64,000 bases of DNA. Source: Solidesulfovibrio alcoholivorans DSM 5433. GTDB lineage: Bacteria; Desulfobacterota; Desulfovibrionia; Desulfovibrionales; Desulfovibrionaceae. The notes beneath the pieces were generated by a model. That model saw nothing but the letters and a program-made list of their open reading frames with translations. It did no database searches and was not told where the DNA came from. The stretch's first letter is position 1; each line of letters begins with the position of its first letter. Positions 1-9,177 of this stretch are shown here, piece after piece. Location: NCBI RefSeq assembly GCF_000702665.1, contig NZ_JNJA01000015.1, positions 1-64,000 of the forward strand. Direction: 5' to 3'. Position numbers and translations under genes: made by a program.

Positions 1-410
1 TTTACGACGTCCATCACCATCGCTGCAATCCTGATGGCCTCACCGAACTTGATGCCACGGATTTGGCCGCTGGCACTTGGGCAACCGTGGAACGCGAACA
101 GTACTGTCATGTTTCCTCGCCCAAAAATGGTTGGGGCCAGGGAGATCCAAAGCCTCATGCCGATTTCATCGACCCGAAGGACTTTCCGGTGTGCTGGCTG
201 GGGCGTGAGATGACCGTGGACGTTGAAGCCAAGGCCAAGGAGCTGGCGGTGGTCCAGTTAATGGGCGCACAGGGGCGGGGGCTTGGGCCGAGACAAGGGC
301 GGAATGGATCTGAGACATGGGGCGGGCCAATCCCCACAAGGACGACTTTGATCACGCGACCAGCAACCTCCTTCTTTTCAAGATGTTGGGGCCTTATCAA
401 CTTGACATAA
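1..410 (+). CDS. UV damage endonuclease UvsE/UvdE-like, 3' part
   Basis: Frame 3 from the window edge reads YDVHHHRCNPDGL, then SSPKNGWG, HADFIDPKDFPVCW and VDVEAKAKELAVV. These match the C-terminal part of UV damage endonuclease, a metal-dependent TIM-barrel enzyme that nicks DNA 5' to UV photoproducts. The HHH and HADFID stretches carry metal-ligand and lesion-site residues. The family-like sequence stops near base 265, and the following 48 residues up to the stop at 408-410 look unrelated, so the end may be frameshifted or extended. The 5' part lies outside the window. It lies in the foreign AT-rich segment, though it is less AT-rich than the genes that follow. Confidence 0.7.
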   Translation, partial: YDVHHHRCNPDGLTELDATDLAAGTWATVEREQYCHVSSPKNGWGQGDPKPHADFIDPKDFPVCWLGREMTVDVEAKAKELAVVQLMGAQGRGLGPRQGRNGSETWGGPIPTRTTLITRPATSFFSRCWGLINLT

Positions 411-946: not shown

Positions 947-3874
947 ATGTTGGAGCTGCGCAAAGGAAAATCATTCAGGTCATACGAGAATGACTTCTTC
1001 AGGATTCTCGCCGCTGGTCTTACCGCAGAATTTGATAAACGAGGATGGGACGGCCTGCTTATCGGCATGCCTGAGTCTCTGGAGTTGGAGAGCCTTCAAA
1101 TAGACTGCTTGTTGGTGACGAATGACCGGATTGTGCTGATAGACTTTAAAGATTACAGTGGCGATTTAGAGTTGCCTGAGCAGGATATGTTCGATGTCGG
1201 CGCGTGGAAGATAGACGAAATACCAGTTAGGGGTGGTAGCTCTGTAAACCCATATCGCCAGTTGGGGAAGCAGCGAGCAAAATTAAATAAGCAACTAGGG
1301 TGGAAGATGCGTGGTTTCGATCGCAAGTCGGTTTATACCTTAGTTTGTTTTCATGGTCAGATCAATATTATAGGGAGAGTGCCGAGACGAATCATCGGAT
1401 TCGATATCGTGGACTCGACAACCGTATTCAACAAGATTGTTGATATCGTCGATGTCCAATCAGATAATCAGAATTACCTGACACCCGCCAATAGAAGCCT
1501 GTTTACTGACAAGCTATTCTCGGCACCAGAGTATTTTGTTTCAATTACAACGGAAACCGCGTCTAAACCTGAAGAAAAGGATGAGGTCAAGCCGATTGGT
1601 CGTGGTGTCGCTGATGCAGTCATCACTGAGACTGCTTTGCCTAATCTGGAAGCTCTGTATATGATAAGTATTGCCGAATTCCTGTCATCCCAAGACAGAG
1701 TCCTCATTATCTCTGGCAACACAAAGAGCGGTAAAACAAGGTTTATTCCTAAAATCAGAGACATGGCATTTGACAACGCGTATATTGAAGTGCCTGTGTT
1801 TGCTTACTCAAACAGACTAAAGAAGAGGATGCATGATAGTCACCCTGAAATCCAAGAAGTCGAATCTTTGTATGGCGCAATTTACGACTTTTGGAATGAA
1901 GAAGTGGATGAGAACTATAAAAAAACCATCCCAGTAAAAACTATTACTGAAACGGTTGAAGAGGACCTTCAGGGCAAGGTTCTTTATATAATTGATGATA
2001 GTCAGCTGATATCAAATTCGAGCTTGGATTCAGAGATACTTCGGTTCGGAACAGGGTGCTTGCTAGATGATTTTTTTACGTACTTGCAGTTGGACAAGTA
2101 CCCCAATAGAAAAATTATTTTCATCGGTGATACTAGCCGCATCAGCTATGGCTCTAAAGTTGAGAACCCTATGAACCCAGAATACCTTGGTGCGTTTTTG
2201 GAGAGCAAGGGAGTCAAGAGTGACATAAGAAGTCTCGTTTTGCCCCCAAACAACAGCGATTCGGAGATTGTCAAAGTCTGCAATAAACTGGCTAGCAATA
2301 TCGATAACAAAATTTTCAATTCTTTGCTCATAACGAACACGGGCAATGTCTGTATCGTGAGCACAAAGAATCAGACTTCGATTCTGAAGGCAGCATACGA
2401 AAGCCCAATGCACAACAAGATACTGGTCTACACAAATGAACAGGCCAATCAAATCAATTTCTGGATAAAGAAAAAACTTGCTCACAATGGGGCGGAGATA
2501 GGTCCCGGCGATACAATCGTCTTTAATTCGACAACCAGTGCCTATGCTCCAGATCGCATCGTTAATGACGACGTCCCTTTCAGCACTGACGAGCAGCCAT
2601 TCAATTTCGATGAACCAAAGAGAATCGACAACGGGAACTTAGCTACTGTGATTTCGGTCGACTGGGAAACTGCCTTCGATATTTCAAGAGATATCAAAGG
2701 AGAAACAGTAAGGCTCTTATTTATCCCATGTCAGGTGAAATTGCAAGATTCGAGCCTTCTTCAAATTTATGTGTTAGACAATTACTTGAAGGCAAATAAG
2801 GCAGAACTGGAGACTGGCGAGAATATTGCGTATCAAGCTATTCTGTGGAGTTGCTTAAATGAGTATTTCTCTAAAAACAAATTTGAAGACAGTAAAGAGT
2901 ACAAAGAAATGGAGGCTCATGGGGACTCGTACTATGAGGAAACTGAGAAAGGATTGAGGCTTGCACGAGACTTAAGAAAACTGACTCCAGAAGAAAAGGG
3001 GTTTCGCAAACGGATGGAATCCCGCCTGCTGCACGACCAGACTTCAAAGTATTTCAAAGTTTACCATGCGGCACGAGTTAAATACGCTTGGGCGATGACT
3101 GTCAACAAAGCTATGGCGTTCACGTTCGACAGGGTGTTCTTTAACACAAGTCAAGGCGATAGTCACGGTAGAACAAACAAAGACTATTACAAGTGGCTTT
3201 ACACGGGCTTCGCTATCGCAAGCAACAGCGTTGAACTTATTAATTGGAAGACAATCTCTCCATTTATGAAGACGGACTTCAATTCAATGCCGAGCAACAC
3301 AGCGCCAAAGGTAAAGCAATTCATCTTTAGTTTCTCCAACGATAGCAAAACAAAGGGCGCTGAGTTTGAGGATTTTCTCGCAAGCAGTTTATTGCTTTCA
3401 GGGTGGCAAGTTTTAGATGTCTTGCACCGGCCATACTTGGAAATAGTAAAACTCCGAAAGGACGAGGCCGTGCTGGAACTGCTCTTTGACTATAACGGCA
3501 AGGGCGAAATGAAGCCTCCGCGTCTTAAGTCTGGTGACACTCAATACCGTGATGAAGTGCTTCGCCTTTTGATGAATAGCAATGTTTCTAAAACCACGCT
3601 TGCTTCTGGTCCTACTAATCAATGCGGAGACATGACAAGTTTCTTCGAAGAACTGATTGCACTAATTAGCAGTCGAGGTATTGCGTCACGAATAGTGAAG
3701 ACGCAGGAATGGATGGCGATATTTGAGTTTGCAAAAGGAAATACCAACGCGAGTGTACAGTGCTGGTACGATTCTCATGGCATGATCTCGAAATTCAACC
3801 TCATAAATGGGAGTGAGAGCTTATATTCCGAGATTGTTGCGTTTATTAATGATACATACTCTCTTGAAGAATAG
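947..3874 (+). CDS. NERD-type nuclease fused to superfamily 1 helicase
   Basis: A 975-residue protein. Residues about 10-160 resemble a NERD/restriction-endonuclease fold: QIDCLLVTNDRIVLIDFKDY supplies D53 and D66-x-K68, a PD-(D/E)xK arrangement. An SF1-type helicase core follows: Walker A GNTKSGKT at 257-264, Walker B VLYIIDDSQ at 345-353, motif III IFIGDTS near 391-397, and a motif V/VI-like AWAMTVNKAMAFTFDRVFF near 712-730. The last 170 residues (from KGAEFEDFLASSLLLSGW, about 803) may be another nuclease-like or accessory domain. No signal peptide or membrane segment. The stop is 7 bases before the next gene, so the two are co-transcribed. NERD-helicase fusions of this sort occur in anti-phage systems such as Nhi-type proteins; a defence role here is inferred. 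It is too diverged for a gene name. Confidence 0.8.
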   Translation: MLELRKGKSFRSYENDFFRILAAGLTAEFDKRGWDGLLIGMPESLELESLQIDCLLVTNDRIVLIDFKDYSGDLELPEQDMFDVGAWKIDEIPVRGGSSVNPYRQLGKQRAKLNKQLGWKMRGFDRKSVYTLVCFHGQINIIGRVPRRIIGFDIVDSTTVFNKIVDIVDVQSDNQNYLTPANRSLFTDKLFSAPEYFVSITTETASKPEEKDEVKPIGRGVADAVITETALPNLEALYMISIAEFLSSQDRVLIISGNTKSGKTRFIPKIRDMAFDNAYIEVPVFAYSNRLKKRMHDSHPEIQEVESLYGAIYDFWNEEVDENYKKTIPVKTITETVEEDLQGKVLYIIDDSQLISNSSLDSEILRFGTGCLLDDFFTYLQLDKYPNRKIIFIGDTSRISYGSKVENPMNPEYLGAFLESKGVKSDIRSLVLPPNNSDSEIVKVCNKLASNIDNKIFNSLLITNTGNVCIVSTKNQTSILKAAYESPMHNKILVYTNEQANQINFWIKKKLAHNGAEIGPGDTIVFNSTTSAYAPDRIVNDDVPFSTDEQPFNFDEPKRIDNGNLATVISVDWETAFDISRDIKGETVRLLFIPCQVKLQDSSLLQIYVLDNYLKANKAELETGENIAYQAILWSCLNEYFSKNKFEDSKEYKEMEAHGDSYYEETEKGLRLARDLRKLTPEEKGFRKRMESRLLHDQTSKYFKVYHAARVKYAWAMTVNKAMAFTFDRVFFNTSQGDSHGRTNKDYYKWLYTGFAIASNSVELINWKTISPFMKTDFNSMPSNTAPKVKQFIFSFSNDSKTKGAEFEDFLASSLLLSGWQVLDVLHRPYLEIVKLRKDEAVLELLFDYNGKGEMKPPRLKSGDTQYRDEVLRLLMNSNVSKTTLASGPTNQCGDMTSFFEELIALISSRGIASRIVKTQEWMAIFEFAKGNTNASVQCWYDSHGMISKFNLINGSESLYSEIVAFINDTYSLEE

Positions 3875-3881
3875 AGGCTGA

Positions 3882-5906
3882 ATGTATACACAAAAACAAT
3901 TCAATGACGACTTGTACCGACTCACGCAATCACCCTACTATGTCAAGTTTCAGCTACTAAAAAACTATGCTGAAGGGCGTATTAATCAGCAAGACTTCAT
4001 CAATCAACTGGCAGAAAAGAAAGCCGAAGATGAGATAGGCAAAGTATTGAACGCCGTGAATATAGTGCTGCAAAAATTGCAGCAGAATTGCGGCAAGTTT
4101 GATGAAGACCCAATTGATGCTGCTAAAGGATTTAGGAAGGAGGGAAAACTAAAAGAGGCATTTCAACGGATAGTTCCCTATCTTCGGCAAAACCAGGAAA
4201 ATGAAGACGCAAAACTTTCTTTCGGATGGATCATGTATGACTATCTAAAGCAATCAGAGGACAACTTCGATTTATACTGCAGAAGCTTAAGAACACTGAA
4301 TGACCATGCTCGCTTCGACTTCAACGCAAGGAATAGTAAATATGTAAGGACTTTACTTGCCTCGGTCTTGTGGTCGATTAGGCGAGTGGCAAGTAAAGGT
4401 GAGATGCCAGCAAACAAAGTGTTTGTAGAGTTTATGAGATTTGTCGGACACTCTGCATCATTCATAGAACGGCGTGGCTTGAACTGTAGTCTTGGGGCCG
4501 ACGATGTTTCTTCATCACGACCGCTATTAAAAGAACTACAAAGCAAACTTAATGAGAGAAACTACTTTGTCCTGATGGACATGATTGGTTTTGATTGGTT
4601 TGACTTCTCCGATTATGCAAAATCAAGTTTTACCGGGAGCGATGGCAGAACTGTTGAGATGCGACCGCTCGCTGAAACTGCTCTAAATTCTCATGCCAAG
4701 AAGCTAATTAAGTCTGATGAACATCTCGCCACTCGTGAAAGAATCAGTGCCTTCCTTCCAACGTTGACCCGTGCTATCGCTAGTCACCCAGATTACGAAT
4801 GGCTCCCATATTATAAGATTAAACTCTTGATAAAACTCGGTGATTCTAAGCAAGCATTCTCCGAGGTAACAGAATTTGCTCGTAGTAAGAGCAGAGACTT
4901 TTGGGTGTGGGATTTTATCAGTGATTTGACGGATGGAGAGGAAAAATTCAACTGCTTATGTGCTGGTCTATTGTGCAATTCAAAGGCAGAAATGATAGTT
5001 GGACTTCAAGAGAAATCAATACCCCGCTTGGTCGATAAGGGACTGCACTCTGAGGCAAAACATGTGTTGGACAAGTTGGTTGATACGCGCATGCGAAACG
5101 GTTGGAAAATACCAAATCAACTATTAACAGAGAAAGAACGTGATTGGTATAAGAATTGCGAGCCTTCCTCTGATCTTGATGCTTTGCATATCTATGCTAT
5201 TAAGGCGAAGCTGATACTGTATCGTGAACTTCAATTTTCTGATGTTTTCGTAACATATATTAATTCTGAGAAGGGTGCAGTCAGCTTCTTGTACATTGAC
5301 AGCGGTACTACGAGAGAAGGTTTCTTCTACAAGGACTCAGTTGGAAAGCCATATGCCTGGAAGGCCAACACTGCGGTCCGATTGAAAATGATTGAGGATA
5401 AGAAGCGTGGCAACCTATTTAATGTTTTTGATGTCGAAGACGGGGACGAGAGCTTTGCCGCCAATTTTGTGAAGAGATTCTCCGGAACTTTCGAAAAAAT
5501 AAAAGATTTTGGGTTCATTAGGGATGGAAGAGTTGAGATATTTATTAACCATGTTCTTGTGAATGATTACAAACTGCTTCCTTTTTCAACAGTATCAGGA
5601 ACTATTTTCAAGAAGTTCGATAAAAAGAAGGGGCGATGGGGATGGCAAATCATTTCTATTGATAAGGTTGAAGAACCTGTTCTCTCAGACTTTGAGAAAG
5701 ATGTTTCTGGGGTGATTGCAATCACAATGAAAGGCTTCGGTTTCCTTGATGAATGCTATGTCCCCGCAGAGTTAATTCAAAGCAGCAACGCTGGAGATGG
5801 TGACTATATTAAGGCTAAAGCGCAAAAATCCTGGGACAGAAGCAAGGATCACTGGTCTTGGAAGATAGTTGAAATCATTGCTGTCCGGCTAAGCCGCAAA
5901 GTCTAA
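3882..5906 (+). CDS. Helical-repeat protein with C-terminal cold-shock/OB-like domains
   Basis: A 674-residue protein that I cannot place in a named family. Residues 1-450 look all-helical, with TPR-like pairs (for example GFRKEGKLKEAFQRIVPYLRQN and IKLLIKLGDSKQAFSEVTEF). Residues about 453-674 hold two or three small beta-rich units. Two start with similar strands, FSGTFEKIKDFGFI and VSGVIAITMKGFGF, and both end in a tryptophan-rich strand (GRWGWQIISI and DHWSWKIVEI), as cold-shock/OB folds that bind single-stranded nucleic acid do. It starts 7 bases after the nuclease-helicase gene with an AGAGG-like ribosome site, so the two genes form one transcription unit. A role as nucleic-acid sensor or adaptor for the helicase is inference. 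Confidence 0.75.
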   Translation: MYTQKQFNDDLYRLTQSPYYVKFQLLKNYAEGRINQQDFINQLAEKKAEDEIGKVLNAVNIVLQKLQQNCGKFDEDPIDAAKGFRKEGKLKEAFQRIVPYLRQNQENEDAKLSFGWIMYDYLKQSEDNFDLYCRSLRTLNDHARFDFNARNSKYVRTLLASVLWSIRRVASKGEMPANKVFVEFMRFVGHSASFIERRGLNCSLGADDVSSSRPLLKELQSKLNERNYFVLMDMIGFDWFDFSDYAKSSFTGSDGRTVEMRPLAETALNSHAKKLIKSDEHLATRERISAFLPTLTRAIASHPDYEWLPYYKIKLLIKLGDSKQAFSEVTEFARSKSRDFWVWDFISDLTDGEEKFNCLCAGLLCNSKAEMIVGLQEKSIPRLVDKGLHSEAKHVLDKLVDTRMRNGWKIPNQLLTEKERDWYKNCEPSSDLDALHIYAIKAKLILYRELQFSDVFVTYINSEKGAVSFLYIDSGTTREGFFYKDSVGKPYAWKANTAVRLKMIEDKKRGNLFNVFDVEDGDESFAANFVKRFSGTFEKIKDFGFIRDGRVEIFINHVLVNDYKLLPFSTVSGTIFKKFDKKKGRWGWQIISIDKVEEPVLSDFEKDVSGVIAITMKGFGFLDECYVPAELIQSSNAGDGDYIKAKAQKSWDRSKDHWSWKIVEIIAVRLSRKV

Positions 5907-6500: not shown

Positions 6501-6506
6501 AAGGTG
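6501..6506 (+). promoter_or_regulatory. Ribosome binding site that sets the recombinase start
   Basis: AAGGTG lies 6 bases before the ATG at 6513. The in-frame GTG at 6504 is part of this site itself, so the start at 6513 is preferred. Confidence 0.65.
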
Positions 6507-6512
6507 ATTGCT

Positions 6513-8243
6513 ATGACGCCCCTGAGCCATTCGCAAGCAGGAATATATGTTCGTGTATCGACTGCAAATCAAATTGATAGAGATTCATTAGCTACCCAAG
6601 AAGAACGACTTCGTGCCTACTGCGTTGCCAACCAAATTCATGTCTATAAACTTTACAAAGATGCAGGCTTTAGTGCCAAGGATACAAATCGACCGGCATT
6701 GAAGGAATTGCTTCATGATGTTGAGGCTGGTTTGGTGTCATCTGTTTTTGTTACAAAGCTTGACAGAATAACTAGATCTACAAAGGATTTATTGTACCTT
6801 ACGGAATTTTTTGAGAGCACAAACATTAGATTTGCCAGTATTTCGGAAAATATAGATACAACTTCTGCCCACGGCAGATTGTTACGACAATTGATCGGCG
6901 TTTTGTCTCAATTTGAGCGAGAATTAGTCGCTGAACGTGTGTCTGTTGATATGTCTCATCGTGCTAAGCAAGGAAAATGGAATGGAGGAGTTGTGCCTTT
7001 TGGCTATACCACTCAAGAGCTATGTCATAAAAGATTAGTAAACACTGGACTTAATGACATTGAAGCGGCTTCACAAAGTACTTCTTTGTATCCAGAACAA
7101 AAAAAACTATATATTGAGCCTAAAGAGGCCACTATAGTTGATTGTATATTCAACACTTTCCTTAACCACAATAGCGTTCGTAAAACGGCACATGCACTTA
7201 ACGAACAAGGATATCGAACGCGGAACGGGGGGCATTGGGGAACCGTTTCGATTCATCGGATACTCACTAGCCCAACGTACATTGGAAAGACTTGGTACGG
7301 GAAAAGAAAGAGTGACCCTGTAACTGGAAAACTTATTTCTCAGGATAAGCAAGATTGGATTGTATGCGAAGGGCAACATCCATCTATCGTGAAAGATGAA
7401 ATATATGAAAGAGTTCAGCTTATGCTAAAATCAATTTCAACAAAACCAACAAATAGCAAAAGAAATTATCTTCTCTCTGGCATATTAAAATGTGGATTAT
7501 GCGGTGGCGCTATGGCAGGCAATACAACTTTTAAAAAAAATTCTGATAAGACTTATGGGTACTACAAATGTGTAAATCGTATGCAAAAAGGTGTTGAAGC
7601 TTGTAGCGGGTTAAACATACCTTCTATCGAAATAGAGAAGTATGTAGTTGATAGTGTGCTGTCTCTTTCGGAGAATAAAGAATTCTTGTTAGATAAACAA
7701 AAAATTTTAGATTTATTTTTACAAAACAGCCAAGAGGAAAATCGTGCCCAAGATCTATTTCAACTAGAGGAAAACATACAAAATCTGCAAACACGACTTG
7801 ATAACTTATTAAACGCACTTGAGTGTGGAAGAATTGATGGCAAAGATTTCGATAGAAGATATAGTGCTCTTAAAAATGAAATTGAAGAGGTAACGAGTGC
7901 GAGAGATCGGCTTTTTGATTTAATAAATGAAACGGACTCAACTAAATCTTTCTTACAAACATCTTTTGAAAATCTTTGTTCGTTCTCTACGAATTGGGAA
8001 TTTTTAGACGATACAGGGAAGGCGTTACGACTCAAATCCATCGTTAAGGAAGTTCGCGTTTCAACTCAACTAGTTGAAATAGATATATTTATTGATGTTG
8101 GAGAAATGTTCCACACGGACAGGGATTCATCGCCGCGACCAGCATCACGTCCGCGGGATAGGAAAGCGACACCGCCGCCCGGGCGATGGTCACCCTGCCG
8201 TCCTCGAGGGGCTGGCGCAGCACCTCCAGGACGGACTTCTTGA
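6513..8243 (+). CDS. Large serine recombinase (integrase) of the element
   Basis: 576 residues. The N-terminal resolvase domain begins AGIYVRVST, with the catalytic serine in VRVST, and continues with TKLDRITRS and [18 protein letters not shown] recombinase domain follows at about 160-300 ([16 protein letters not shown], then [17 protein letters not shown]). Next come a zinc ribbon ([11 protein letters not shown], then YYKCVNR and ACSG) and a coiled coil ([19 protein letters not shown]) typical of large serine integrases. It catalyses site-specific integration and excision through a serine-DNA link. It lies at the very end of the element and reads outward. The last 40 or so residues (roughly from [14 protein letters not shown]) are encoded by host comM DNA read backwards, so the native protein from the circular form must end differently. 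Confidence 0.93.
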
Positions 8244-9177
8244 ATTCCGGCAGCTCGTCCAGGAAAAGCACCCCCCGGTGGGCCATGGACACCTCGCCCG
8301 GGCGCGGATAGGAGCCGCCGCCGATGAGTCCGGCGTCGGAAATGGTGTGGTGCGGGCTGCGGAAGGGGCGCTGCGTGAGCAGGCCCGCGCCGTCCAGGCG
8401 GCCGGACACCGAATAGACGGTCGTGACCTCGAGGGCCTCCTCGAAGGACAGCGGCGGCAGCACCGTGGGGATGCGCTTGGCGAGCATGGTCTTGCCGGAA
8501 CCCGGCGGGCCGATGAAAAGCAGGTTGTGCGAGCCGGCCGCCGCGATCTCCACCGCGCGCTTGGCATGGGCCTGTCCCTTGACCTCGGCGAAGTCCTCGG
8601 CAAAGGCGGTCGCGTCGCCGGCGGCGGCGAACGGCGGGGCAGGGCACGGCGCAAGGCCTTCCTCGCCGGAAAAAAAGCGCAGCACCTGGCCCAGGTCGTC
8701 GGCGGCGTAGACCGCGAGCCCGGCCACGGCCGCGGCCTCGTCGGCGTTGGCGCGGGGGACGACAAGCCCTTTCGCCCCTTCGCGCCGGGCCCGCGCCGCC
8801 AGGGGCAGCACGCCCGGCACGGGCTTGAGCTCGCCGGAAAGGGAGAGTTCACCGCAGAGAAAGAATCCGTCCGCGGCCCCGGGGGGCACCGCCTCCACGG
8901 CCGCGAGCAGCGCGAGCGCCAGGGGCAGGTCGTAGCCCGAGCCCTCCTTGCGCATGTCGGCCGGCGCGAGGTTGACGGTGATGCGCGCCGGCGGCAGGCG
9001 CAGACCGGCGTTTCTCAGCGCCGCGAACACCCGCTCCTTGCTCTCGCGCACCGCGCCCTCGGCAAGGCCGACCATGGTGAACGACGGCATGCCCTGGCGG
9101 GACAGGTCGACTTCCAGGGTGACGGGATGGGCCTCGATGCCGAGCAGCGCGCCGGTGGTTATTCTGGAAAGACTCAT
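8089..9177 (-). pseudogene. ComM/YifB-family Mg-chelatase-like AAA+ ATPase, 3' part lost
   Basis: About 355 codons of a protein that is normally near 505 residues. The N-terminal region ([24 protein letters not shown], residues 1-170) is the lon-protease-like fold of this family. The AAA+ core has Walker A GPPGSGKT, Walker [12 protein letters not shown] and sensor 1 [12 protein letters not shown]. The frame then enters element DNA and stops after six foreign residues, removing the C-terminal helical domain. In other bacteria ComM is a hexameric branch-migration helicase that helps integrate transforming DNA. It is almost certainly inactive here unless the element excises. Confidence 0.88.
8105..8135. 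other. Element/chromosome junction (att site) inside comM
   Basis: Read on the minus strand, ComM follows its family through [12 protein letters not shown] and then turns into TFLQHQ-stop. The family continues for about 150 more residues after MNPCPCG. Codons change from GC-ending to A/T-ending (AAT, TGT, TGT, GGA) just within this motif, so the crossover may lie anywhere from 8105 to 8135. The partner junction is outside the window. Confidence 0.7.

Follow-up and report, generated by a model that had tools for sequence, protein, structure and literature searches.

A TOTE-type gene pair with a NERD nuclease domain and an apparently motor-degenerate SF1-like core on a mobile element of Solidesulfovibrio alcoholivorans

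Judged by its domains, the gene pair at positions 947-5906 of the window (the whole stretch of 64,000 nucleotides analysed here) is a TOTE-type conflict system of the kind that PADLOC lists as PDC-M16, and it belongs to a branch with a NERD nuclease as the effector. The system itself is already known as a candidate; what appears to be novel is that the SF1-like core of this branch has lost most residues of a helicase motor. The original prediction had proposed a candidate new defence system. Defence is plausible and the genomic context supports it, but PADLOC already lists this kind of system among its candidates. We infer a defence role for the pair.

Gene 1 (947-3874, 975 amino acids) and gene 2 (3882-5906, 674 amino acids) are open reading frames on the plus strand with a spacing of 7 bases, exactly as had been described. 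Both are AT-rich, as also claimed, with a GC content of 0.42-0.44 vs about 0.68-0.74 for the flanking chromosome. Gene 1 starts with a NERD region (approximately residues 8-136, 968-1354, plus strand), of which residues 48-136 match the Pfam model at 9.9e-10, above the cut-off. E14, D53, D66-x-K68, and Q105 are conserved in this region. The catalytic residues named in the prediction, D53 and D66-x-K68, are kept in 6/6 close NERD genes together with K263 of the P-loop, and E14 is invariant in the same six. The SF1-like core follows at residues 238-770 (1658-3256, plus strand). Its Pfam matches are weak (AAA_30, 0.0038; UvrD_C_2, 0.0093; both below cut-off), and only SF1-type models are matched. 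At the C-terminus, a tandem TBP-TOTE region (approximately residues 795-975, 3329-3871, plus strand) had been overlooked before. It matches PF22721 in two stretches at 8.2e-13, with 48.2 bits vs a cut-off of 27, and 898-965 is the top-scoring stretch.

Gene 2 has the TPR-like helices and the tandem OB-like domains that had been read from the letters. DUF7017 (PF22860, 1.1e-38) lies at residues 306-434 (4797-5183). It is followed by an S1CSD-TOTE-1-like domain (residues 447-513, 5220-5420), which is weak here (E 0.016) and clearer in homologues, and by two copies of S1CSD-TOTE-2 (PF22707, 1.2e-26) at 5472-5660 and 5697-5876, all on the plus strand. The second copy is absent from the Paenibacillus-order homologues. 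AlphaFold2 models built on two-sequence alignments had a mean pLDDT of 35 for gene 1 and 54 for gene 2, too low for fold comparison; the latter model predicts helical repeats N-terminally, with a pLDDT of about 70-87 in that part. NCBIfam gave no match for either gene, a PDB sequence search with each protein singly gave chance-level matches only, and Rfam gave nothing within the window.

In PADLOC, gene 1 matches PDC-M16A (best model PDLC04474, 4.5e-76) over residues 13-958 of 975, NERD included, and gene 2 matches PDC-M16B (5.4e-92). The two genes are adjacent, as PDC-M16 membership requires. "PDC" stands for "phage defence candidate" in PADLOC usage (PMC11514479). TOTE is composed of TPR, OB, TBP, and Effector and is credited to Aravind, Iyer and Burroughs 2022 in a citing paper (PMC12458937). 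The pair has a TPR-type protein, TOTE-type S1/CSD OB domains, and the TBP-TOTE domain, and the predicted effector is the NERD domain, whose catalytic residues appear intact. PF22721 and PF22707 matched 0/14 control genomes. The profile search that had been suggested for both proteins thus returned PDC-M16A/B, PF22721, PF22707, and PF22860, and the statement that no named system has this partner does not hold, given near-full-length PADLOC matches and TOTE-named Pfam domains. Our literature search found no paper naming PDC-M16 or "TOTE conflict system" and no phage or plasmid assay of either; of the papers it found, PMC12458937 alone discusses TOTE.

The core was compared between six close NERD genes (the window's gene, L005, and L057-L060) and nine TOTE helicases without NERD. 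The six come from different phyla and represent about four lineages, because L005/L057 and L059/L060 are near-duplicates. In SF1 helicases, the glutamate of motif II, the glutamine of motif III, and the arginines of motifs IV and VI couple ATP hydrolysis to movement. Motif I is as in active SF1 enzymes, as gene 1 has the Walker A sequence GNTKSGKT with K263, and all six close NERD genes retain Walker A. The other motifs are changed. In motif Ia, PT is lost in 6/6 close NERD genes. Motif II reads DDSQ in 6/6, whereas it is DEAS in 9/9 non-NERD helicases. In motif III, K/R replaces Q and SY replaces PP in 6/6, with Q present in 9/9. The arginine of motif IV is missing in all six and present in all nine. 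Motif V is NKAMA in the six vs HK(A/C)QG in the nine, and in motif VI, A or S stands for the R that 9/9 non-NERD helicases have. Hence, none of the six has DE in motif II, Q in III, R in IV, QG in V, or R in VI. The original call of an SF1 helicase therefore has to be corrected: the SF1-like core and its P-loop are there, but most catalytic motifs are gone in this branch.

These motif assignments are anchored because a profile of mixed TOTE sequences matches and aligns its motifs with SF1B helicases of solved structure, e.g., Dda and RecD2. With a NERD-only profile, the best helicase match was at E 0.14. A more distant NERD gene (L081 in genome G1098, which belongs to the window's bacterial order) carries a different set, with GKRT in motif I, VE in II, HRGQG in V, and C in VI; Q and R are apparently retained in motifs III and IV. 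Since DE is changed to VE in motif II and Arg to Cys in motif VI, loss of motor residues recurs in the NERD branch. In the core tree, these genes cluster as a single NERD group (support 0.997). The core dN/dS is 0.12-0.18 (three pairs), which indicates purifying selection, and therefore the core is not in pseudogene decay. A truncated NERD-TOTE gene with a helicase remnant lacking Walker A was seen on a Leptolyngbya plasmid (L082, 6118-7128); it looks like a decayed copy. We found no description of a motor-degenerate NERD branch in the literature, where the TOTE review was represented by a paper citing it (PMC12458937).

On balance, we lean towards the following reading of the pair, which comes from sequence comparison: a nuclease under an NTP-binding, motor-defective core that the TBP and OB domains would direct to nucleic acid of the invader, within the NERD branch of TOTE. 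Both proteins would form one complex, with gene 2 as a scaffold carrying nucleic-acid-binding OB domains. The OB (S1/CSD) and TBP-like domains may bind single-stranded or RNA-DNA hybrid structures arising from phage or plasmid DNA. In RNase H3, a TBP-related domain recognises the RNA/DNA hybrid (PMC4132731), and for TBP-like fusions in RNase LS proteins, hybrid binding has been proposed (PMC3710099). By analogy with these two cases, a hybrid or distorted duplex as the target is a reasonable guess. A core that has kept its P-loop but not the coupling residues would more probably serve as an NTP-bound switch or clamp than translocate as a motor; the bound nucleic acid would then be cut by the NERD domain. 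Because its PD-(D/E)xK-type residues are kept, cutting is the likely output. We propose tentatively that a distinct NERD-TOTE branch, present in different phyla, traded the motor for a fused nuclease, and that selection kept the core as an NTP-binding switch or clamp through which NERD is allowed to cut nucleic acid bound by the TBP and OB domains.

The pair is rare and sporadic, and its order is conserved. In 16/16 loci with a TOTE helicase that were read, the TPR-OB gene comes immediately after the gene-1-type helicase (the Hymenobacter partner is an apparent TPR-OB counterpart), so the conserved pairing that had been named as a check was indeed found. In 395 genomes of the phylum, gene 1 had no further convincing match (one extra hit at E 8e-4 has internal stops), and S1CSD-TOTE-2 had no further match at all. 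DUF7017 was dropped as a phylum-wide marker as it matches generic TPR proteins in 111/395 genomes; S1CSD-TOTE-2 is specific. Paenibacillus and its order hold the closest relatives: a pattern search gave L005, whose gene 2 is 47% identical, and 5/298 genomes of the order have a relative. More distant pairs are on plasmids of Chryseobacterium, Sulfurospirillum, Acinetobacter, Pseudomonas, Shewanella, E. coli, Rhodothermus, and Hymenobacter, and gene 1 relatives occur on Klebsiella plasmids. In E. coli, a pair with DUF4145 was covered to at least 80% in 42/5426 complete genomes, with both chromosomal and plasmid matches. Scans of viral contigs with gene 1, gene 2, and the L081 protein gave no relative. 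The Runella plasmid pSP2_2 (L011, 5893-8915) has a TOTE TPR-OB gene and a neighbour of 473 amino acids, with no TOTE helicase beside it; this TPR-OB gene adjoins cas1, cas2, and a primase-polymerase gene.

Several pairs lie near defence genes. One NERD pair is found with brxL (BREX) and dynamin-like Leo genes (L059), and its near-duplicate (L060) with pglX and pglZ (PADLOC) and a brxL-like reading frame whose start matches that of L059. A CBASS-type oligonucleotide cyclase is upstream of the distant NERD gene. On the Shewanella plasmid pSX1_LC6 (L013, 4863-14798), the pair is located between the genes for the S and R subunits of a type I restriction system, and the Rhodothermus pair has cas1/cas2 and a CARF gene nearby. 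The expectation that pairs sit near defence genes was thus borne out for BREX, a CBASS-type cyclase, restriction, and cas1/cas2, but 3/7 NERD loci, all from the Paenibacillus order (L005, L057, and L058), are lone insertions with ordinary chromosomal genes around them. The association with defence genes is descriptive.

The pair in the window is carried by a mobile element, as had been predicted from the recombinase beside it. This gene (6504-8243, plus strand) encodes a large serine recombinase (Resolvase, 9.7e-39; Recombinase, 1.3e-23; zinc ribbon); it is a mobility gene and is not counted as part of the system. The right junction between element and comM lies at a core of the CCYTGTCC type (8111-8124). 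The N-terminal part of comM (8111-9177 with the junction core, 8125-9177 beyond it, minus strand) is split from its C-terminal part, which is on contig C6 of the same genome and adjoins element DNA there, while the intact comM of relatives runs uninterrupted through the insertion site. From the comM halves on C15 and C6, it follows that the element extends from about 232.6 kb of C6 to the end of C6 and into C15, perhaps with further contigs in between. The left end is outside the window, which begins at base 1 of contig C15. The end of C6 is just past a transposase which, from its sequence, we take to resemble that of IS256. As the recombinase frame crosses the junction with comM, its last residues are encoded by the chromosome and would not be the same once the element is excised. 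A fragment at the contig start (window 1-410) weakly resembles UvdE (0.00098, below cut-off); it was not confirmed as UvdE, and the genome has no UvdE match elsewhere.

comM appears split into short open frames in 4/12 genomes of the genus with a match (G000, which is the genome of the window, G695, G697, and G699). In G697 the left junction is nearly identical, in G699 the genes of the left end are similar and BREX genes are aboard, and G695 has a prophage at comM. The gene thus seems to be a hotspot of integration where cargo can be exchanged. On the C6 part of the window's element, there are Zorya A, B, C, and D genes; this type I Zorya (zorA, zorB, zorC, zorD) is at L006 7745-10867 and L007 6-4590. 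The same element encodes a fusion of a ParB-N domain and an N6/N4 DNA methylase (L006, 5903-7492), with no evident restriction partner. The pair would be one part of the element's cargo, which includes other defence systems.

Three other explanations were weighed. The pair could be an ordinary TOTE system with a divergent SF1 core that is still an active motor, in which unusual residues replace the canonical ones. Walker A is conserved, as is the first Asp of motif II; purifying selection acts on the core, and the Lys of motif V and YT of motif VI are retained; with DD in motif II, some hydrolysis may still be possible, so that the motor defect remains a reading. Yet the arginines of motifs IV and VI, the Gln of III, QG of V, and the Glu of II are all changed in 6/6 close genes, and the distant L081 is without the Asp of motif II and the Arg of motif VI. 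We therefore consider an active motor unlikely.

We prefer our reading also over two alternatives for the role of the pair. An abortive or toxin-like system, with NERD turned against the nucleic acid of the host once infection is sensed and with gene 2 as its regulator, seems quite unlikely. Five other TOTE helicases have DUF4145 at the equivalent N-terminal position, and DUF4145 is in the HEPN superfamily, whose members are often toxin RNases (PMC3710099), but no dedicated antitoxin was seen, although the evidence fits host and invader targets alike. That the two genes are DNA repair or replication accessories, aiding the element or the host with no defence against invaders, is also quite unlikely in our view. 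The location on an element that encodes its own recombinase and the three Paenibacillus-order loci among ordinary genes would fit this, but the sporadic presence, the neighbouring BREX, CBASS-type cyclase, restriction, cas1/cas2, and Zorya genes, the occurrence in Paenibacillus without the window's element, and the TOTE-specific domains all argue against it.

Among known systems, Nhi had been named as a likeness. It combines a nuclease and a helicase in a single protein in general terms, but the window has a second gene, and PADLOC gave the gene 1 protein no match to an Nhi family at E values up to 1, so that it is not Nhi-like. TALON shares the NERD nuclease, TPR-CSD, and TBP components, but has a helicase of the YprA family at its centre to which NERD, TPR-CSD, and TBP are added parts (PMC12458937). 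No reading frame for a YprA-family helicase is present between the pair and the recombinase; on the left side, the contig start truncates the neighbouring gene. The window pair differs from TALON in its SF1-like core and in having NERD, core, and TBP in one protein. Both proteins match PDC-M16 and no feature excludes membership; the PDC-M16A model scores far higher on the distant NERD gene than on the window's branch. With TOTE conflict systems, as described in the citing paper (PMC12458937), the pair shares the TPR and S1/CSD protein, the TBP-like domain, an effector nuclease, and the pairing of the genes; different are the N-terminal NERD effector and the degenerate SF1 core. The DUF4145-type TOTE pairs on plasmids of E. 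coli, Klebsiella, Acinetobacter, and Sulfurospirillum have the same gene order, TBP-TOTE tail, and S1/CSD partner, but DUF4145 is located where the window has NERD, and their SF1 core is canonical. The branch adds an example in which selection has retained a helicase fold although its motor function is apparently lost. DUF4145 or no N-terminal domain with a canonical motor vs NERD with a degenerate motor is a clean natural contrast, which points to the damaging part and is testable by a few point changes.
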